From Styela clava (Eukaryota > Chordata > Ascidiacea > Stolidobranchia > Styelidae): a DNA stretch of 64,000 bases. This document shows positions 40,617 to 63,803 of this stretch, in pieces. The stretch spans positions 12,782,974-12,846,973 of the forward strand of contig NC_135259.1 of NCBI RefSeq assembly GCF_964204865.1, given 5' to 3'. Within the stretch, counting starts at the first letter, position 1. Each line of letters opens with the position of its first letter. The position numbers were made by a program, and so were the translations under genes. Under the pieces are notes generated by a model that did not search any database, was not told where the DNA came from, and saw only the letters and a program-made list of their open reading frames with translations.

Positions 40617-42044
40617 AGTTGAGACCAGATTTATCGGCAAAAGATGTCTCTGGCTGCTTAAATGTATTCAGAATGTATTCAAGAATAAGATCTGAAGGTA
40701 GCCTATAAATAAAAAAATATGTCACATAACTTCCTCATATGAAAGCAACTTAATTTAAGCTTATATCAATACCTGTACCGGTACCAGACAAAAATATTAT
40801 TTATTCAGTGGCTTTGGCAGCCTAGTAAAAGTTTGAGTTGAGTTTTTAAAGAGATATTTCGCTACCGTACGCCGTACGGTACCTTATAACCCTGTGTAAC
40901 ATTACGTACCGCTTATGCATTCGATATGAAATAATGTTTCAGACAGCTCACAACTAAGATAAATGAAACTCCCGCCCCAAGGCTTTTAGATCCAATATTA
41001 AAAGTGCCTATGAAACTTTTGTTGACATTGGTAAGTTACTTTCCTCTATTCCAAATATTGGTTATACTTATTTTTGGAGGCGCGGTTCTTACCACTTCAT
41101 GGCAGCTCCTGCCACGAACGTACCGATACGTACCGCGGCGTCTCTTGCTACCGGTATGGTTTTATCGCGCTATTACCGGTATATTTACTTACAAAGTTAT
41201 GTCATGTCATAATGTGGAAATATATCTACCTAAACCTAACCCCAAATACTGTATTCATAAGAAAAGCGTTTCAAGCAGCCCTGCTATTACAGCCGACATG
41301 CCGTGGTTACCGGTACGGCAGCAAAATTGGTGGTATTCTATTTGCTGCCGTAACCACGGCACCTTTAAATAGTTTTATAGTAGGGTATATCATTGAGGTG
41401 TTGTATAGGTTTACTGTATAGTCATTTTGGTTTGTGGCAGCCAAAAAGTCAGTCGCCGTGGGTTTGGTCCTGGTTTGGCTATAGCGGCCATGGTTTGGAA
41501 ATCCCGCCACGGTTTTGCGGCAGCTCTAGACGCCACAAAATACTTGAAACTGCACTTGTATTTTTGATAACATTTTTTGCATTTGCATATTTTGTTTACT
41601 AAGTAATTTACTTTGAGTTTCTTGAGTTTTTTTTTAATTTTTCTATATCTCTGTAGTTAGGTGGTTGCACATGTTGTAGGTGGTTGCACGTGTGACAATT
41701 AATTCAATACTTCTAGGCGAGTGAACATTTACGGTACCGCTTCATTTCAATAGTGTTTGTACCTATAGCTGTAGTGTAGAGAGTCCATAACGTCAGAACG
41801 TTTTGTTTGCTCTCCTGATTCTATATTGTGATTTTATCAATTATAAACTTTCCTCCTACACGGAATAAAAATTTAAATCCAACTCACCTTTAAACTGTGA
41901 CTGAAAGGAAAGGTTCATATTACTACCGTTTTCTTTGTGGCCCACGTGCAGACATGATTGTATTGCAGCAGAATCATAGTCAGTTCAACATTTTATCGAA
42001 CAATATTAGCTTGTATCTGCTTTTCAATTAAAATATATACTATT
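40617..42044. other. CHMP6 upstream region with GGTACCG-rich tracts
   Basis: Contains the CHMP6 5' flank, then scattered palindromic GGTACCG/TACCGGTA words (about 40776-41160 and 41730) and two imperfect inverted segments built on CCGTGGTTACCGG (about 41300-41360). Open frames here are low-complexity by-products. No recognised gene. Confidence 0.4.
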
Positions 42045-43240
42045 CTATCTTCGACCCACTTTCCTATCTCCCTAAACTCTTTTATTCTCAACCCACTGTC
42101 CTCTCTATCCCCAGCCCACTGCTCCATTACTCCCACCTTCATACCTCAACCTCCTCCTCGGCCCAATGTCCTATCACCCTCAGCTTTCCTATCCTCGACT
42201 CACTGTCCTATCTCCACCAGCCTTTCTCCCCTCTACTTATCTATCTCCGACCCACTGTCCTATCTCTCTCACATTCCTATTCTCGACCCACTGTCCTATC
42301 TCCCTCAACTTCTTATTCTCGATCCACTACCCATCTGTCCCACTTTCCTATCCTCGACCCAATGTCATATCTCCCTCAACTTTCTATCCACGACCCTATC
42401 TCTCTCACCTTCCTATCCTCGATCCACTGCCTATCTATCTCAACCTTCCCATTCTCGACCCACTGTCCTATCTCCCTCAACTTCCTATTCTCGATCCACT
42501 ACCCCATCTCTCTCATCTTCTTATCCTAGGTCCACTGACCTCCATCTCTCTCAACTTCCAATCCACGGTCCACTACCCTATCCCTCTCACCTTTCTATCC
42601 CGGATCCTACCTATCTCAACTTCCCTAAGCTCTGTCACTGTCCTATCTCCCTCAACCTTTCTAAGCTAGACCCACTGTCCTATCTCCCTCAACTTCCTAT
42701 CCACGAACCACTGCCCTATCTCTCCCGCTTCACTATCCTCGACCCACTGCCTTATCTCCCTCAAGTTCCTATTCTCGATCCATTACCCCATCTCTCTCAC
42801 CTTCCTATCCCCGATCCACTACCTATCTCCCTCATCCTTCCTATCCTCGACCCACCGCCCTATACTACCCCGCACCTAAACTAACCGCGCTTTACCCAAG
42901 CTCCGACGGTAACACCCAACATTTTTCATGCTTGTGATTATTCAAACTCTCAGGTTTTATACGGCTCGAGTATGCCAATGAAATGATGGAAGCGTACGTC
43001 GACGAATCAAGCCTATAAAGTTGACGGCATTCGTGACATTTGAATATGAAACAAACGTATAGCTTCAGTGAGTGTGAATGATGACAGAAATGTTTGAAAT
43101 CTTTCAAAGGTACTCATTTACATCATTTGCCAGGCCATTTAAATGTAGGCTGCATCCAAAACGTTAATCAATCACCATAATTGGTAGCTCAAAAATTTGC
43201 TACTTGTTAGGCCACAGATGTTCTCGGGAGCGGAAGCGCT
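42045..43240. repeat. Left arm of a foldback element, with 36-bp minisatellite
   Basis: 42045-42875 is an array of about 23 imperfect 36-bp units built on CGACCCACTGTCCTATCTCC followed by a CTCAACTTCCTATT-like half. 42876-43240 is unique arm DNA. The whole segment is repeated inverted at 49450-50447: the unique part is roughly 90% alike by eye, including GTCGACGTACGCTTCCATCA and CTACCAATTATGGTGATTGA. The array reads through as a long Pro/Leu/Ser-rich frame, which is an artefact of a unit length divisible by three. Confidence 0.85.
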
Positions 43241-43954
43241 GATAAAGCTATTTTGAAGATAATAAACTGCTTGTATGACTGCTGCTTACGTAGGGGAAAG
43301 CTTATGAAGCGTAACAGCATTTAATATGATGTGTCTTTAGGACACTGATCCGAGACCGGTTAAACTCTGATCCGTAAAATGAAAAAAAAAATAAATGAAA
43401 ATAATAAACCATGTATGTACACAGTGAACGCGAAGCCACTGACACGAGCAGCAAATTGGATTAGGGGGGAATGGAACAGTCTGCCGATTACACTATTTTT
43501 ATCACAAAATCCGTATAACCAATCGACCCATTTTTTGAGGAGTTAATGATCTTCCAGCGCGCAGCGGGTCAATCTCTAAATATGGAGAGGGCACATATTT
43601 TATGTGTGAATAGAGAGATCCTTCGAGAATACAGGTTTCGACAATATCAAATATCATTTAAAAGAATCCTTATACAGTAATTCGGACCCTCACGCAATCC
43701 AAATAGACAGTAACTGGCAACACCTATCAAACATCTGCCACATTATTAATTTAAATCCAAGCGAATGGGACTCGGGAATTCTTGCGGCTGTGGCAGATAT
43801 TTGTTTGTTGGCCGCGATCTTCAAAGGCTAGGTCGATTATTTATACGGATTTAGTGATAATACTAGTGTAATCGGGAGACTGTTCCACCCCAAATTAATT
43901 TCCTGGGTGAATCTGTTGCTGATTATTGCTTGTGTCAGAGGTCCCACGGTTCGT
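43241..43954. other. Loop of the foldback element
   Basis: About 715 bp between the two inverted arms, left of the LINE insertion. It contains an A10 run near 43382 and no recognisable gene. If the foldback once encoded anything, it is not visible here. Confidence 0.4.
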
Positions 43955-43963
43955 GTGTACATG

Positions 43964-43968
<5 letters not shown>
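43955..43968. repeat. Target-site duplication, left copy, of the U2-led LINE
   Basis: GTGTACATGTTGTA, identical to 49417-49430. It abuts the poly(T) that represents the LINE poly(A) tail. Confidence 0.9.

Positions 43969-44007
<39 letters not shown>
43969..44007 (-). other. LINE poly(A) tail
   Basis: An almost uninterrupted run of about 39 T on the plus strand marks the 3' end of the retrotransposed RNA. It directly follows the left target-site duplication, confirming poly(A)-primed target-site reverse transcription. Confidence 0.9.
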
Positions 44008-44260
44008 CTTGATTTTTCGGATCAGAGTATGTATGGTCTGCCTCGGATCAGTGTTACATATAATAACACGTCATACCCGAGTCGTATCGGTATTAATCCT
44101 CGCAATCACATTGCCGCATATGCGGCGGTCAGATGACATCCACTCATCACTTCCGTTGGGTTGTTTGATGGTATTCTCAGGAGTATGCTACCATTTGTGG
44201 GTGGCATAGATAAAAGGTTCATTACATTTATTGTTGTTAGGATCTGGTTTTCTCGTTATT

Positions 44261-47152
44261 TTATTGTTCGTACCCCGCAAGTATTTCTTTCCAATTAGGT
44301 TTCAAATTGGATGTGTATACCTTGGGAAATTTTTTGTCAAGTTGGTTGATAAAATCGGACCATTTTCGAGTTGTTTTGGGGATAATTTTGTCCTCGCTCG
44401 GATCGACTATTCTATTTTCTATATCTAACTTGATTTTGAAGTTGATTATTGCTAATTTGAATATTAAAAATAGTTTTATGGTTATGGTCTGAACTGTCTG
44501 GTTGGGCATGGTGTAAGAGTTGTAGAAGATATTTTCTTTAGATATTTGTACTGGTATTTTAAGGGTCCTGTTCAGTATGCCCGTGGTTTTGGAAAGGTGT
44601 CGTGAAATGTAAGAGCAGTGTAAGAAAATGTGTAGGGTATTGTCTTCACGGCTTCCACAGAATTTGCATTTTAGCAGTTTTCTTTGGCCGTGCGCATCGC
44701 TAAACATAGATCTTTTCCGCGCTTTATTCCCAAAGATGTACCCATCAGCCACTATTCTGTACGAACATATCTTCTCTTTGTTTGTTGTTTTATGTTTCAG
44801 AGTTCTTTGCTTTACGTGAACGCAAGTCCAATCTATTCCCGTTGGGTATGGAGACTCAGTTTTCAGGTTGTATAGGAGATTTCTGTATATGTCTTTGTGC
44901 TTCATGTCAGCCCACTGTTGTTTGGTAAGATGTATTCCCTTTGTTGTATCCAAATATTTTTGCCAGATTTTGGGGACGAAGGGGAGTTGTGGGGTAGAAT
45001 TTGTATATAAGCTTGGGTTGTTTTTTATGATTTTGGATCCTAAAGCATAGACTGCTTCCTGATGCCAAAAAAGGTAAGGTGTATCGATATTGCTTAGTAT
45101 TTTTATTCGCTCTGCTATACATGCTGAAATTTTAATTTTGATATTGGGCATATTTATGCCGCCTTCTAACCATGGCCGTTGTAGCGTGGTTCTCTTTATC
45201 GCCTCCATTCCCTCGGGGAACCATAGGTATTTAGCAACTAGGTGTTGTACCTTGTTGAGATATACTGGCGGTATTTCTACAAATCTCGCGTGAAATATTA
45301 TTAGTGACATGATCAGGGAATTTATTACTGTTAGTTTTCCAATCCAGGTGAGTTTTCGTGTTTTCAAAAAGTTTAATTTTCTGGTTATTTTGACAAGTGT
45401 TTCGTCCCATGTTATTGTTTCCCGCCCTAATCCATAATATATCCCCAAGATTTTTTCTGTATCTTTATGGTGGGTATTATAGTTGGATTTCCGGAGACGT
45501 TGTGCTGCGTCAGTTGTGAAACTCAATATCTGGGTTTTATCTATATTAATTTTTTGTCCTGCTGCTTTTTCGTATTTTTGTAATTCAAAGAAGATTTGTT
45601 GAATGGAAGTTATATCTCTCACTGCGTAGGTGGCGTCATCGGCAAATTGGTCCAGTTTATGTGTGAATTTTCCAAGTTTGATGCCATGTATGTCGGAATT
45701 TCGTTGTACTGATCTAATTAGTGGTTCTGCGTTTAGAATGTATAACAACATGCTCAATGGGCATCCTTGTCGAATTCCCCTATTGATTTTGATTGGGGAG
45801 CTCATTTTACCGTTAATATCTATGTAGTTGTAAATTTCTTCGTACATGTTTTTGACGATATTAGTTATTTTGGGGCTGAGGCCGATTTCGTGTAATACTT
45901 TAAAAAGGAAGTTATGGTCTATTCTGTCGAACGCTTTCAAGTTGTCGATCATTACTAAATATCCTGGAATTTGCTTGGTTTGACAGTAGCGGACAACCGC
46001 TTCTAGGTTGTAATGGGCATCAAATATACTTCGTCCAGGTAAGGTACTCTTTTGCTGTTGGCTTACCAATGTGTTGAGTGGAGATTCTAGTCTTTTGGTT
46101 AAAAGCCTTGCAACCAGTTTGTAGTCAAAGTTGAGATTCGAGATCGGTCGCCAATTTTTTAGTAGATTTTTGTTTCCCTTTTTAAATATCAATTTCACTC
46201 TGGCATAGTGTGAGCTTTGCGGTAGAGCGCCGAAGCTCAAGATAATATTAATCATATTCGTCAATTTTTCTTTTATCATGTGCCAAAATGTTATATAGAA
46301 TTCTTTGCTTAGCCCGTCAGGGCCGGGGGATTTATTATTTTTCATATCTTTTATAATAGAGAATATCTCGTCCTCGTTTGTGGGTTTTTCTATCTCTTCG
46401 TTTTGATCTTGGCTGAGTTGTGTGGCGCTCATTTGATTGATATAGTGGTGCTGGTGAGATTCGTCTATTTTACACTTCATGCCCCATAGCTCGTTATAGA
46501 AATCCTCTACCGCCTTAGTTACTTCGTTTTCACTTGTAACTATCTTCCCGTTTAAATTTTGGATAGAATCCATCGATGTTTGTTTTGCGCGTGTTTTGAT
46601 CCTATCATAGAAGTACTTCGTTGGTTCTTCTCCTTCTTCTTGATCTTCTATGCCCGCCAGGATTGTTTTATAATTGGCTTTGTTGTCAATCAAGTTTTTT
46701 AGCTGTACCCTAAGTCTTTCCAGTTTTCTTACGTCTGTACTATTCTTGTTGGCCACTGTATTCGCAATGTTTTGTCTTATCAATTGTTCAGTTATATTGT
46801 CTTCTTTTGCTTTTTTTATTGAGTATGCTATAGTTTGTTTTTTGGTGTTTAGTTTGAAGTTGTCCCACCAATCTAGTAAAGATTCGAAACTTTCAATGTT
46901 TATCAAGGCCCTATTATATGTATTTTTTATAATTTCGAAGTAATCTTTTTCTTTGTATAGCGAGATATTGTTCCGCCACATCCCCCGACCCCATCTTATA
47001 TTTTTCAAAACTCTGAGTTTAATATATGGGCATAGAGCGTGATCGGCTACGGTGTTCACGGCATGTCCTACGTATGTAATTAAGGGGTCGATTTCGCGGG
47101 AGTTATAAATTCTATCAATCCTCTTGGCTTGCTGGTTGGCATTGGATATTGG
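44261..47152 (-). CDS. LINE ORF2, endonuclease C-terminus and reverse transcriptase
   Basis: An uninterrupted frame of about 960 codons. It opens with the last part of the APE-type endonuclease (RIDRIYNSREIDPLITY, then ADHALCPYIKL). The reverse transcriptase follows: NNKSPGPDGLSKEF, NWRPISNLNFDYKLVARLL, RGIRQGCPLSMLLYIL, and the catalytic box FADDATY (about 45632-45652), with FADD in place of the usual YADD. Near the C-terminus is a CCHC motif, CKFCGSREDNTLHIFLHC, typical of L1/Tx1 elements. The frame runs without a break into the U2 segment, but that extension is chimeric. Absence of stops over 2.9 kb suggests recent insertion. Confidence 0.93.
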   Translation of the reverse strand, partial: PISNANQQAKRIDRIYNSREIDPLITYVGHAVNTVADHALCPYIKLRVLKNIRWGRGMWRNNISLYKEKDYFEIIKNTYNRALINIESFESLLDWWDNFKLNTKKQTIAYSIKKAKEDNITEQLIRQNIANTVANKNSTDVRKLERLRVQLKNLIDNKANYKTILAGIEDQEEGEEPTKYFYDRIKTRAKQTSMDSIQNLNGKIVTSENEVTKAVEDFYNELWGMKCKIDESHQHHYINQMSATQLSQDQNEEIEKPTNEDEIFSIIKDMKNNKSPGPDGLSKEFYITFWHMIKEKLTNMINIILSFGALPQSSHYARVKLIFKKGNKNLLKNWRPISNLNFDYKLVARLLTKRLESPLNTLVSQQQKSTLPGRSIFDAHYNLEAVVRYCQTKQIPGYLVMIDNLKAFDRIDHNFLFKVLHEIGLSPKITNIVKNMYEEIYNYIDINGKMSSPIKINRGIRQGCPLSMLLYILNAEPLIRSVQRNSDIHGIKLGKFTHKLDQFADDATYAVRDITSIQQIFFELQKYEKAAGQKINIDKTQILSFTTDAAQRLRKSNYNTHHKDTEKILGIYYGLGRETITWDETLVKITRKLNFLKTRKLTWIGKLTVINSLIMSLIIFHARFVEIPPVYLNKVQHLVAKYLWFPEGMEAIKRTTLQRPWLEGGINMPNIKIKISACIAERIKILSNIDTPYLFWHQEAVYALGSKIIKNNPSLYTNSTPQLPFVPKIWQKYLDTTKGIHLTKQQWADMKHKDIYRNLLYNLKTESPYPTGIDWTCVHVKQRTLKHKTTNKEKICSYRIVADGYIFGNKARKRSMFSDAHGQRKLLKCKFCGSREDNTLHIFLHCSYISRHLSKTTGILNRTLKIPVQISKENIFYNSYTMPNQTVQTITIKLFLIFKLAIINFKIKLDIENRIVDPSEDKIIPKTTRKWSDFINQLDKKFPKVYTSNLKPNWKEILAGYEQ

Positions 47153-47190
47153 ATCGCTTCTCGGCCTTTTGGCTAAGATCAAGTGTAGTA
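47153..47190 (+). pseudogene. First 38 nt of U2 snRNA fused to the LINE 5' end
   Basis: From 47153 the plus strand matches the 5' end of metazoan U2 snRNA from nucleotide 1 to 38 with no mismatch that I can find against the conserved sequence. It starts ATCGCTTCTCGGCCTTTTGG and ends with the branch-point recognition sequence GTGTAGTA. It then switches to element sequence at 47191. U2 continuation (TCTGTTC) is absent, so this is not a U2 gene. It stands exactly at the 5' end of the reverse-transcribed RNA and in sense with ORF1. Confidence 0.93.
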
Positions 47191-47216
47191 GGTCGTATGC
47201 TAGCTAGACCTGAGTA

Positions 47217-47247
47217 TCGATCTTCGGCTCTTCGGCTAAGATCAAGC
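47217..47247 (+). repeat. Second, degenerate U2 5' end in the LINE 5' UTR
   Basis: Starting 64 bases after the first, ATCGATCTTCGGCTCTTCGG then CTAAGATCAAG aligns to U2 nucleotides 1-31 at about 25 of 31 positions. The last 13 bases, GGCTAAGATCAAG, are identical to U2. A 26-base spacer separates it from the first copy. Confidence 0.75.
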
Positions 47248-47302
47248 CTTAGGAACAAGTTATAGTTGGAATTACAAGATAGTCTAAATACCTTTGGATA
47301 TT

Positions 47303-48616
47303 ATGGCCTACGCAAAAGTCGCCGCTATACCCCCAGTAATGACCACACCAAGTAATAACAGACCGCGATCTCTGATGATCGAGACGGAGGACAACATAAA
47401 TTTTGAAGGACTGCTTGGAGTTTTAAAAACAACACCCGATGTCAACCAGTACTACAATGAAATAAAAGGATTATTTGAAGTGAGAAGAGGTCTCTGGACA
47501 ATATCCTTTAAACCTACATCAAACGAAACGTCTAGTTGCAGGGATGAGTTCCTAAGCGCAACCGGTGGCAAGTTGAATTCAATGTATGGGCCTATCCACT
47601 TCATGCTACCCGCAGGTACACCGACAAGAATTTCAATCAAAGGCATACCCGATGAAACACCGTTTGCGAGGGCCGCGGCAATCATAAACAACCTAGAATG
47701 CGGCAAAATTAAAAACGCAATGAAAAACTGGCACAAAGGCACGGAAATATATAACGGTTATACCGCTTTTTTCATCACAGACTTTAACAAGGATAAACTA
47801 CCGGACTATATCATATTCGATGGAATAAGATGCAAAACGTATCTCCCGCAAGAGTTATACACTCCGACATGCGGCAGGTGTTTACAACAGGGCCATACAT
47901 TCGTCGCATGTCAGAATACACCGGTATGTAGATACTGCAAAGAGGAAGGACACCTCGTAAAACAATGCAAAAAACGTATCGACCGACACAATCAGGAAGA
48001 ACCAACCGCTTGGAACATATCTAAAAGAACCGCTAATACTAACAACAAAACAGGGATAAATACAAACCGTCACAACGTACCACAACTTAATGCAGGCATG
48101 TGCCTTTCGCCGCTATCCTCAACATTGCTAAGAGAAGAGGCAAACACAAACAGCAAACCACAAACCGAAGAGGAGAGCACACAAGCAATAAGCGATAACG
48201 AAACCTCCTCAAACTGCGAAAACGATGACTTAAACGACGAAACAAAAGATTGGTCTCTGAGCAGAGACGACTCCCAGTTAGAGAAACCGTTGGACATACC
48301 GAGAACACCTAGAAGAAAGTTAAAACCAACTTCAACAATCGGACAGACCCCCATAGTACATGAAATGACAAGACAATCGTACGTAAAAGGAATGGTTAGA
48401 GGATACGAATCCATTGACTCTTCCTCGTTTTCTGATACGTGGATTAATAACTCAGCCCCCGCTCATTTGGGAAACAGTGACTACAATCCAATTGGACAAG
48501 CCAGTGGCGCAAATAAACGAGATAGACTTAATTTGAGCTCTGCATCATCCTCGTGCACACCGCCTAACCCCAAGAAGGAGAAAGCCTCCGCCACAACCGA
48601 GCGCCCACAGACATAA
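47303..48616 (+). CDS. LINE ORF1, gag-like protein with two zinc knuckles
   Basis: A 437-residue frame from the ATG at 47303 (MAYAKVAAIPP). An in-frame TTG at 47294 is less likely as start. The N-terminal half resembles nucleic-acid-binding ORF1 proteins of the Tx1 group. Two CX2CX4HX4C knuckles lie at about residues 190-203 (CGRCLQQGHTFVAC) and 209-222 (CRYCKEEGHLVKQC). The C-terminal half is Ser/Thr/Asn-rich and probably disordered. A 190-bp spacer follows before ORF2. It is intact, with no stop or frameshift. Confidence 0.9.
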   Translation: MAYAKVAAIPPVMTTPSNNRPRSLMIETEDNINFEGLLGVLKTTPDVNQYYNEIKGLFEVRRGLWTISFKPTSNETSSCRDEFLSATGGKLNSMYGPIHFMLPAGTPTRISIKGIPDETPFARAAAIINNLECGKIKNAMKNWHKGTEIYNGYTAFFITDFNKDKLPDYIIFDGIRCKTYLPQELYTPTCGRCLQQGHTFVACQNTPVCRYCKEEGHLVKQCKKRIDRHNQEEPTAWNISKRTANTNNKTGINTNRHNVPQLNAGMCLSPLSSTLLREEANTNSKPQTEEESTQAISDNETSSNCENDDLNDETKDWSLSRDDSQLEKPLDIPRTPRRKLKPTSTIGQTPIVHEMTRQSYVKGMVRGYESIDSSSFSDTWINNSAPAHLGNSDYNPIGQASGANKRDRLNLSSASSSCTPPNPKKEKASATTERPQT

Positions 48617-48806
48617 ACAATCGACTGTGGCAACCAATCCACCAATCAAAAGACACCAGGAAAGATAATTGATACAAAACAAACCACACAGACATAACTT
48701 GGATATAAATAAGGATTATAACTCGGATATAAATTATGGATGTACCTAGGATCTCGAAACAAAACAAAGGGAAGTCAAAAACGTGAGTTAAATTTAAATT
48801 ACTAAA

Positions 48807-49416
48807 ATGAGCGAAATGAAAATCATATCAATAAACGTAAACGGGCTTAACCATCATAAAACGAAACTAGCCCAATTCGTATCATATGAAAAACCTGACA
48901 TTCTATGCCTACAGGAGGTCAATAAAATCAGAAACAGCATAGTAGAAGAGTGGGCAGGAAAACTGGGTTACCACATTTTCCCTAACACGCTTACCGTATT
49001 AGATCCCGAAGACAAAACCTTCAGGAAAGGCACCGCAATAATGGTAAAGAACGCCCTGATAGAAGGCGTTCAATACTCCGTTCGCGTTAAACACAGATGT
49101 TGCAGCCTAGCGCTAGAAATCGACGGACTTCGCATAGAAATAGTAAATGTGTACGCCCCCGCAAAGAGCGGCGCACCGAAAACAGAGTTTTACAAAGAAT
49201 TGGTGCAGATCTTGGAGGACATGTATTACCTAAGCCCCTTGATAGTTCTAGGGGATTTTAATGTGATCCTAGACAACCGAGATGTTTTAAACCCTTCCAA
49301 CCAGAAACACACGGCCGCGGCCAAAATTTTCAACGCTCTCCTAACAAAGCACAAGATAAGTGACTCCTTTCGACAACGAAATAAGAATAAAAGAATTTAC
49401 ACCTTCATATCCAAAA
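48807..49416 (+). CDS. LINE ORF2 N-terminus, APE-type endonuclease, cut by the inversion
   Basis: ATG at 48807 (MSEMKIISINVNGLNHHKTK). Apurinic-endonuclease motifs occur in order: SINVNGLN, ILCLQEVN, NVYAPAKSG and LIVLGDFNVILDNRD. The frame stops being element sequence after YTFISKS at 49416, where target DNA begins. The missing C-terminal endonuclease segment lies on the other strand at 47152 and below. The protein as encoded here is therefore split and not functional. Confidence 0.92.
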
Positions 49417-49430
49417 GTGTACATGTTGTA
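49417..49430. repeat. Target-site duplication, right copy, of the U2-led LINE
   Basis: GTGTACATGTTGTA, identical to 43955-43968. The site is followed by ATATTTTCAAAA. The last element base is ambiguous by one or two positions. Confidence 0.9.
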
Positions 49431-49449: not shown

Positions 49450-50447
49450 TTCCGTACTCCTGCTCCCAGTGGACTGACAAGTAGCAAATTTTTGAGCTAC
49501 CAATTATGGTGATTGATTACCATTTGGGATTGCAGCCTACATTTAAATGGCCTGCAAATGATGCAAATAAGTGCCTTTGGAAGATTTCAAGCATTTCTGT
49601 CATCATTTACACTCACTGAAGCTATACGTTTGTTTCCTATTCAAATATACCCATAATAATATGTCACGAATGCCGTCAACCTTAAAGGCTTGTTTCGTCG
49701 ACGTACGCTTCAATCATTTCATTGGCATACTCGAGCCGTATAAAACCTGAGAGATTACATTATCAGAAGCATACTACAAGGTTGGGTGGGGCCGTCGCAG
49801 GGACGGGGTAGTATAGGGCGGTTGGTCAAGGATAGGCAGTGAACCGAGGATAGGAGGGTGAGAGAGATGGGGTGCTGGGTCGAAGATAGGAAAGTGAGAG
49901 AGGTAGGACAGTGGGCCGGGAGTAGGAAAGTTGAGGGAGATAGGGCAGTGGGACGAGGATAGGAAAGTGAAGGAGACAGGGTGGTGGATAAAACGTTTAG
50001 GGCGATAGGACAGTGGGACGAGGGTAGGAAGGTGAGAGAGATTGGGTAGTGGATCGAGAAAAGGGAGTTGAGGGAGATAGGACAGTGGGTTGAAAATAGG
50101 AAAGATATAGAGATAGGACAGTGTGGGTCAAAGATAGAAAGGTTGAGGGGGATAGGACAGTGGGTCGACGGTAGGAAGGCTGAGGGTGATAGGACAGTAG
50201 TCGGAGAATATGGGGTTAAGGTATAGATAGGAAGGTGAGAGTGATAGAAAGCTTGAGGGAGAAAGGGCATTGGGTTGACGATACGAAGAATAAAGGAGAT
50301 GGAGCAATGGGTCGAAGATAGAAAGGTTGAAGAGATGGAGCAGCGGGTCGAGGATGGGAAGGTTGAGGAAGATAGGGAAGTGTGGCAGTGGATCCACAAC
50401 AGGAAGGTTAAGACAGATAGAGCAGTTGGTCGAGGATAGATAGGTTG
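49450..50447. repeat. Right arm of the foldback element, with inverted 36-bp minisatellite
   Basis: 49450-49800 is the inverted counterpart of 42876-43240. 49801-50447 is the minisatellite in reverse orientation (GAGGATAGGAAGGTGAGAGA-type units, about 18 copies). The inner boundary of the array, GGGGTAGTATAGGGCGG, mirrors CCGCCCTATACTACCCC on the left. This arm has fewer units than the left one, so the arrays have changed length independently. Open frames on the minus strand here are array by-products. Confidence 0.85.
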
Positions 50448-50929: not shown

Positions 50930-52220
50930 CCGTATAAATCCTTTGGTGTTGCATAAATATATTCTGAATGTCAACTCATGTGAAGAGCTCTGGGTTGAAA
51001 TACCTATTCACTTTGAAAAATTTTCTGCGCTGGTTTTTGGTGTGGTATATGGCACCCAAGATCCAGTGAATCTGATTTTATGGCTGCGGCTTAGCAATAA
51101 CCTGTACCAATTGACAAAAAGAAATTTATTATAATAGGTGATATTAATATTAACTTGTTAAGCACCTCAATATTTACAAAAAACCCAAAGCATTCTTCAG
51201 TTTGAATGCTGATAATTCGAATTCATATTTTGACGATTTTATTTCTAAAGTCTTAATTGTGTGTGATAAGCATGCACCATTAAGAAAACTAACTAGAAAG
51301 GAACGTAGTCGAGAGAGAAAACCTTGGATAACAACTTGCATTTTGCGCTCGACTAAAGTTAGAGACAAATAGCATAATACTCATTTTATTAACGGATCCC
51401 CTGAACAAAAACAGCACTATAAGCAACAAATTCAAAATGAAAGCTAAGGAGATATATTTTGCCAAGCGCTTTAAAAATAATATAAATGATCCAAAAAAGA
51501 CTTGTAGTACGATGAATTCTTTAATAAATTCGAAATCAAACATTAATGTTCCTCAAAAATTAATCGAACAGCATTCAATTAGTCGTTAATTACAGTGGAC
51601 TAATATTAAGAATGTTCAATGGGTATTTTTCACAGATTGGACAAACATTGTCTTAGGCATTTCACGATGTAAGCGATAATGAGCATCTGAAATTCATGAC
51701 AAACAAGTCGTCCACGTTTATTGAAGATGCCTCGTTGAATGAGGTAGTATATATAATCAATTCTTTAAAAACTAACAAAGCAACTGGGTATGACCATATA
51801 CCAGCTTATCTCCTGAATCTTCTCTGTAGTACAATAAGTCCCATGCTCAGTAAACTCTCCAATTTCAATTATTTTATGGTTTATTTCCAGATTATCTTAA
51901 AGTTGCCAGGGTTGTTTCGTTTGTTCCTGTATATAAATCTGGAAAAAAAATAATATATTCAATTATCGACTCATCTCTATACTTTCATGCTTTTCTATTG
52001 TTTTTAGAAAAGTTTATGCTTACTCGCCTCCAAAATTTTCTAAATAAACTTTCGTAATCATCATTCAACTACACAAGCAATTCTTCTAGATATTATTAGT
52101 AAATATTATGAAATCGTTGATAAGGGTTTGATTGGCTGTAGTATATTTTTGGATTTAAAAAAGAATTCGACACAGTTGTATACAAAATACTTTTAAGCGA
52201 ATAGAAACTTTATGGGATTC

Positions 52221-52462
52221 GGCGCTCCCGTAGGATGTGCAACAAGATGGCAAACAACGGGACGTAGTATGTGTACCAGGTTGGAATTAGGCCATAATTT
52301 TATTCCAATTTTCCTTATTTTAGTTCTGTTACGAGTTTGTGGACTAGCCAAGTGACTCCCGTAGTATTTGTACCTGAAATTATGGCCTAACCCTAACCTG
52401 GTACACATACTACGTCCCGGGGTCCGCCATCTTGGTTCACATACTATTCTACATGAGTACCC
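52221..52462. mobile_element. MITE, family A, inserted in LINE 2
   Basis: A 242-bp copy, GGCGCTCCCGTAGGATGTG to CACATACTATTCTACATGAGTACC, with extra inner copies of the ACGTAGTATGTGTACCAGG end. It lies between the LDLKK and GRNQFV parts of LINE 2 and so postdates that element. Confidence 0.8.

Positions 52463-61690: not shown

Positions 61691-63803
<2,113 letters not shown>

Follow-up and report, generated by a model that had tools for sequence, protein, structure and literature searches.

An analysis of a 64,000 nt stretch of DNA, here called the window, identified a LINE insertion that begins, at the RNA 5' end of the element, with the first 38 nucleotides of U2 snRNA. The 5' half of the insertion is inverted, the leader is shared among the copies of the family, stacked heads are found in the 5' UTRs, and a relative of the element sits inside a tRNA-Ile gene. 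There is about an even chance that the window holds a single twin-primed, off-target insertion from a LINE family with U2-led RNA, in a LINE group some of whose members reside in small-RNA genes.

Structure of the insertion and its leader

In the preliminary description of this DNA, the RNA of a LINE starts with U2 nt 1-38 in sense orientation, and this was borne out. Positions 47153-47190 of the + strand are identical to U2 nt 1-38 at 38 of 38 nucleotides, the only such match on the + strand of the 64-kb window, with none on the - strand. The piece has the orientation of ORF1 and forms the start of the RNA of an L1/Tx1-like LINE. The same 38 letters are present in an Rfam-verified U2 gene on a contaminant contig and in the U2 genes of the host, which continue after nt 38 with TCTGTTCTT; at that point the window reads GGTCGTATG. 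The Rfam scan of the whole window returned no family at or above its gathering score because the U2 match scores slightly below it; in a scan of 47100-47330, U2 is matched from model position 1 with 43.2 bits (gathering score 46, E 9.2e-8). No ribozyme family was matched in the window scan or in 47100-47330. A chance origin of the U2 piece is ruled out by its perfect identity, given that the best 31-mer elsewhere in the window (both strands, outside 47120-47260) matches U2 1-31 at 19 of 31 positions. In outside collections, two contaminant U2 matches were found among the genome contigs, useful only as U2 and U1 references; the viral contigs contain no exact U2 38-mer, and no related LINE was confirmed there.

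The features of the insertion are as follows.

43955..43968, no strand: target-site duplication GTGTACATGTTGTA, left
43969..44007, - strand: poly(A) tail, 39 nt, T on the + strand
44008..44260, - strand: 3' UTR
44261..47149, - strand: rest of ORF2 with the reverse transcriptase (RT), inverted relative to the 5' half
47150..47152, no strand: three extra nucleotides (TGG) at the inversion junction, separating U2 nt 1 from the RT half and foreign to the element, the 3' half matching copies L013-L015 from its 4th base
47153..47190, + strand: U2 snRNA nt 1-38, 5' leader of the LINE RNA, from sequence identity and Rfam
47191..47302, + strand: remainder of the 5' UTR
47216..47246, + strand: second, decayed U2-like stretch, 25 of 31 nucleotides identical to U2 1-31
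47303..48616, + strand: ORF1, counted from the first in-frame ATG; its CCHC zinc knuckle scores 20.1 bits, just below the Pfam cut-off of 20.8
48807..49414, + strand: start of ORF2, apurinic-type endonuclease domain
49417..49430, no strand: target-site duplication GTGTACATGTTGTA, right

The LINE had been described as otherwise intact, which does not hold. This is one insertion (43969-49416) with a 14-bp target duplication and an inverted 5' half. The 5' UTR, ORF1 and, up to 49414-49416, the endonuclease part of ORF2 are on the + strand, while the RT part runs in the opposite direction from 47149 to 44261, followed by the 3' UTR and the 39 A. U2 nt 1 is separated from the RT half by the TGG alone. 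Copies L013-L015 are continuous across the inversion point, where the two halves in the window overlap by 8 nt. When aligned to the related protein P0003 (1149 residues), the endonuclease part extends up to residue 207 (query 201 of 203), and residue 210 is where the RT part begins to align (query 7).

With its inverted 5' segment, near-contiguous breakpoints, target duplications and poly(A), the insertion is twin-primed, a known mechanism that is described in the available text of PMC4476161. The second cDNA would have been primed inside ORF2 and extended to the extreme 5' end of the RNA, in which case the RNA began at U2 nt 1. The G adjoining U2 nt 1 might, speculatively, be a copy of the cap. 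A later genomic inversion is disfavoured, since the target duplications and the 8-nt overlap argue otherwise. The target site has no likeness to U2, which counts against residence in small-RNA genes as the source of the leader. Because the U2 piece lies within the duplications and the target is unlike U2, it is also ruled out that the piece represents target DNA at this locus.

The only protein matching ORF1, one from 2481 candidates, is Styela clava LOC120347729, with 44% identity over 95%, which points to a tunicate as the probable host. ORF2 contains Pfam domains PF03372 and PF00078, corresponding to endonuclease and RT, and no other nuclease domain was found in it. The best solved relative of the RT part is human L1 ORF2p (E 2.8e-59), with R2 behind at 2.1e-25. 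On its sequence, which combines an apurinic-type endonuclease with an L1-like RT, the element belongs to the L1/Tx1 group.

The LINE lies between inverted minisatellite-like arms at 42039-43215 and 49469-50206 that are up to 92% complementary, and, before the insertion, the site seems to have been a large fold-back unit. Two short inverted-repeat units are also present, at 43472-43541 / 43818-43887 (84%) and 52231-52300 / 52377-52446 (86% complementary). By eye, remnants resembling the RT of a different LINE are found at approximately 51150-52200, and translation of 63056-63679 suggests an exon resembling a DEAD-box helicase.

U2 heads in other copies and other families

A search of the 376.6-Mb assembly with the 5' region, in which the best 40 of 218 candidates were scored, identified at least 6 copies of this region including that in the window. 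Five of them extend to the U2 head, namely the window, L011, L012, L013 and L014, whereas L015 begins at leader position 69 and is hence without it. The head is thus present in 5 of 5 copies found that extend to the 5' end. It is not unique to the locus, so the outcome that the preliminary description had named as refuting its view did not occur. The copies are outside U2 genes and, by eye, their upstream DNA differs. The heads start at U2 nt 1 (window, L011, L012), at nt 2-3 (L014) or at nt 4-6 (L013). Target duplications of about 55 nt (L013), 15 nt (L015) and a short 6-7 nt (L014) are present, and none is clear for L011 and L012. In the U2-headed L011 and L012, parts near the endonuclease region are missing.

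The end of the U2 identity at nt 38, as it was first described, is correct for the window copy and not for its family. Copies L011-L014 read GTAGTATCAGTAGTAGGTCG, with U2 identity to nt 38-40. They contain 9 nt, TCAGTAGTA, between GTAGTA repeats that the window is without, and since the four others carry these 9 more nucleotides, only the window copy stops exactly at nt 38. A loss in the window is the likelier explanation since this copy groups with L015 and L013, in a tree that is unrooted and in which L015 has no head. Because four copies have one junction, the leader can be read as an inherited part of the 5' UTR of the window family. A one-off template switch onto U2, at the window locus only, would be in keeping with the nt-38 junction being peculiar to the window among the five copies. 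However, the leader is common to the family, with the head in four other copies, and the peculiarity comes down to the 9-nt difference between the GTAGTA repeats. As an account of the head as such, a one-off snRNA/LINE chimera is refuted by the five headed copies; only the 9-nt difference could be local, and a switch confined to this locus is extremely improbable.

The exact U2 5-31 sequence, a 27-nt core, occurs 13 times in the 376.6-Mb assembly and its reversed pattern does not occur. Four of these are U2 genes and nine are LINE heads, this being a count of exact matches that may miss more diverged heads. The nine heads belong to four families, which differ in their U2 junctions (nt 33/35, 36, 38-40 and 50). 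Those outside the window family, L020-L023, are the remaining listed matches of the 5' region search besides the U2 genes and a variant-U2 array on C6. They are also LINE 5' ends, and their ORF1 is 34-45% identical to that of the window element. Their heads extend over U2 nt 2-36 (L020), 4-50 (L021), 2-35 (L022) and 1-33 (L023). Poly(A) is accompanied by duplications of about 13-15 bp in L020, 8 bp in L022 and 9-14 bp in L023, lengths that may include some tail A; no target duplication was seen for L021. L022 and L023 are 97.9% identical, and their junctions differ, with U2 to nt 35 followed by TGG in one and to nt 33 followed by ATTG in the other, a difference that one gap and one substitution would also explain. 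All nine exact heads match the canonical U2 and not the C6 variant. The latter forms a tandem array (L016, C6:17.529-17.560 Mb) with a period of 1169 bp and a variant U2 that reads TATCGCTTCTTCGGCCTATTGG...GTAGTAACTG.

Among the exact matches, no LINE was found inside a U2 gene. The source copy had been proposed to sit in a U2 gene just after nt 38; so far, none of the 4 exact U2 genes has an insert at nt 38/39 and all 4 continue past nt 38. U2 sequence from nt 39 onwards does not follow the 3' end of any of the 9 headed LINEs, all 9 of which lie outside U2 genes. A BLAST comparison of upstream DNA, covering 8 of the 9, revealed no likeness to the DNA upstream of U2 genes, a weak test because, even among the 4 U2 genes, only 2 have matching upstream DNA. 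In the RT tree, where the reference rows carry no family names, the five headed rows and P0001 form one set (100/99), so U2 heads recur within the clade. Two changes are needed in the label test because P0001, whose 5' end is not known, falls within the headed set, and the headed families in the tree were found through their U2 heads and so are not an unbiased sample.

Stacked heads are seen in two of the families. In the window, the second U2-like stretch at 47216-47246 is probably an older leader: when the 5' UTR was shuffled 5000 times by dinucleotides, no shuffle reached 25/31, nor does any of 1000 in a separate run. In L020, U2 nt 36 directly abuts nt 1 of a U1-like piece, a decayed U1 5' end in an alignment that covers U1 nt 1-38. 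Its score is 22, where the highest of the shuffles is 14 (0 of 1000; the U1 reference was verified with Rfam), and Rfam's U1 model did not list it. No U1- or U2-like piece above the shuffles was found beyond the head in the 5' UTRs of L021-L023.

Relatives with other small-RNA heads

An RT search, in which the best 47 of 1837 candidates were scored, returned 5 members of the window family, L021-L023, and 34 others from which further 5' regions were taken, with 5 left. The 34 have no clear U1 or U2 head, with best scores of 14 that have no shuffle control and a true 5' end that is not fixed in all of them. U2 heads are therefore in the minority, with 7 among the 42 related LINEs examined. In 20 of the 34 regions, Rfam identified only a tRNA, near L053. 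A closer relative among the 34, L054 (RT 72%), contains tRNA-like and leader-like pieces and no U2 head.

One LINE, L039, lies in sense within a tRNA-Ile gene. The order is tRNA nt 1-33, the element, a poly(A) of 24, GCGTCGTGC again as a 9-bp duplication, and the 3' part of the tRNA; its 5' flank is the same as the neighbouring intact unit at 76 of 80 nt. The gene is part of a large array at C13:18.46-18.78 Mb. There are 101 exact matches to the tRNA-Ile 5' part, all but 5 of which, among the matches listed, are in the C13 array, and ARAGORN predicts tRNA-Ile at two of them (L071 and L072). The array spans C13:18.456-18.778 Mb, with spacing often of about 1.65 kb, and at least one of its genes contains a LINE. 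L040, which belongs to the L039 family and is on another contig, has GAGCGTCGTGC, 11 nt of the tRNA-Ile gene, and a 15-nt filler shared with L039 ahead of its 5' UTR, and might lie in a tRNA remnant. L043, also of this family, has neither the tRNA piece nor the filler.

Other heads come from what look like spliced-leader RNA genes, in tandem on C4 and C6. An intact-looking unit at L061, with TTATTCGCTATTTGATTAAG, GTAAG and an Sm-like T run, is 254 bp before another such head. In L057, on C4, a LINE stands behind the upstream sequence of the tandem spliced-leader-like genes, and L045 and L050 have the same head as L057 with other flanks. A search of the open-licence PMC literature listed no paper with the letters of the putative spliced leader. 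Clusters of related LINEs are present at C4:23.30-23.48 Mb and C6:19.28-19.69 Mb, some of them in tandem spliced-leader-like genes. L053, L054, L067 and L068 contain pieces that we take to be tRNA-Lys or tRNA-Ser 5' halves, and tRNA genes were found within the stretches of L053, L067 and L068.

Residence is thus directly seen for tRNA-Ile and is likely for the leader-like genes. The relatives with, or within, other small-RNA genes suggest that these elements borrow leaders from such genes.

Origin of the leaders

As the source of the leaders, residence in small-RNA genes is narrowly favoured over template switching at the RNA level. Some members of the LINE group would sit in sense in small-RNA genes, the 5' part of the host gene becoming the leader of their RNA. 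Copies landing elsewhere would retain the borrowed leader, and later residence in another small-RNA gene would place a new head atop the decayed old one. The RNA of the window family would start with U2 nt 1 to about 40, and its host gene would be a U2 gene. We infer that there was once a copy resident in a U2 gene and that the leader arose by transcription from the U2 promoter. The absence of a U2-resident copy among the exact matches counts against residence, as do the U2 junctions that vary between families and slightly between L022 and L023, the 34 relatives with no clear U1 or U2 head, and the second label change in the tree. The earlier proposal that an off-target copy kept its leader is supported in part, with the shared leader and the parallels of L039 and L040 on its side. 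The U2 38/39 position is the site reported for Keno and Utopia in the available text of PMC4640811 and PMC6136364, and it fits the window family, not L020-L023 as they stand. According to the accessible part of PMC6390993, snRNA promoters can give rise to long polyadenylated RNAs when 3' processing fails, which counts for residence; counting against it, the U1- and U2-led read-through RNAs assayed in worms were untranslated.

Template switching onto small RNAs, after which a chimera may breed true as a family, falls a little short of an even chance. The variable U2 junctions suggest such RNA-level capture, as do the difference right at the junction between L022 and L023 and the direct joining of U2 to U1-like sequence in L020. 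SINEU have heads from U1 and U2 5' ends, and their repeated addition in crocodilians by Tx1-type machinery counts for switching too. L1 chimeras with U1-U6, 5S 1-45 and tRNA 1-37 are recorded, the latter two mostly antisense, in the available portion of PMC13174262, and that of PMC4476161 ascribes 3'-truncated U5 pieces to internal initiation. However, the one junction in four window-family copies points to an inherited head there, and a dispersed copy carries a bit of the tRNA-Ile gene in which its relative resides; both count against RNA-level capture as the only route. The spliced-leader-like heads also include the intron-side GTAAGC, and L057 has the upstream sequence of the gene.

It is very unlikely that the U2 head dates back to the ancestor of the clade and is kept by selection, for example as a start site, hairpin or cap signal. 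In its favour, 33-47 nt are identical to U2 across families whose RTs share 37-46% of residues with that of the window, but the junction differs per family, decayed older heads are stacked and relatives have other heads. Trans-splicing of the U2 5' part onto LINE RNA is barely credible: tunicates trans-splice and the host is probably a tunicate, yet U2 continues past nt 38 with TCTG rather than GT, and the junctions vary.

With somewhat less than even odds, residence may extend to a tunicate LINE clade that rents small-RNA genes (spliced-leader-like, tRNA-Ile, probably tRNA-Lys, tRNA-Ser, U1 and U2), its earlier target genes being recorded in layers in the 5' UTR. In the open-licence PMC literature, no report was found of tunicate LINEs with U2 leaders. 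One genome here holds a tRNA-Ile resident, likely leader-gene residents, dispersed copies with borrowed leaders and stacked decayed leaders. Comparing the junctions of residents and dispersed copies can separate promoter borrowing from template switching. This bears on the expression of target-specific LINEs and on the ways in which LINEs and SINEs acquire new 5' ends, which are hard to address from single cases.

Keno, a Tx1-group LINE specific for U2 genes, has an apurinic-type endonuclease like the window element (available text of PMC4640811) and a U2 break near the same nucleotides as the window family. It differs in residing in U2 genes, where none of the 4 exact U2 genes of the single assembly searched here has an insert. 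For Utopia, another U2-gene LINE, the same text gives a downstream U2 part from nt 39, matching the window junction, and a restriction-like endonuclease in place of the apurinic type. Its authors expected U2 1-38 upstream of Phytophthora Utopia, and found intact U2 genes. R2, a LINE of 28S rDNA, is co-transcribed with its host gene, which resembles the mechanism proposed here; it is released by a ribozyme (PMC3774820, in the part available), whereas here the host part stays and no ribozyme family was matched.

Mammalian L1 chimeras with U6, U5, tRNA and 5S resemble the window insertion in that a small RNA forms the 5' end of the inserted LINE. The U6 chimeras are independent events that usually do not propagate further, as far as the available text of PMC13174262 goes, whereas here the family inherits its head. 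SINEU are named as SINEs in the accessible parts of PMC8143547 and PMC5753468. They are short, non-autonomous and without ORFs, in contrast to the full LINEs with two ORFs described here, in which heads derive from tRNA and spliced-leader-like genes as well as from U1 and U2. Such elements would give the U1/U2-headed SINEs a LINE counterpart.
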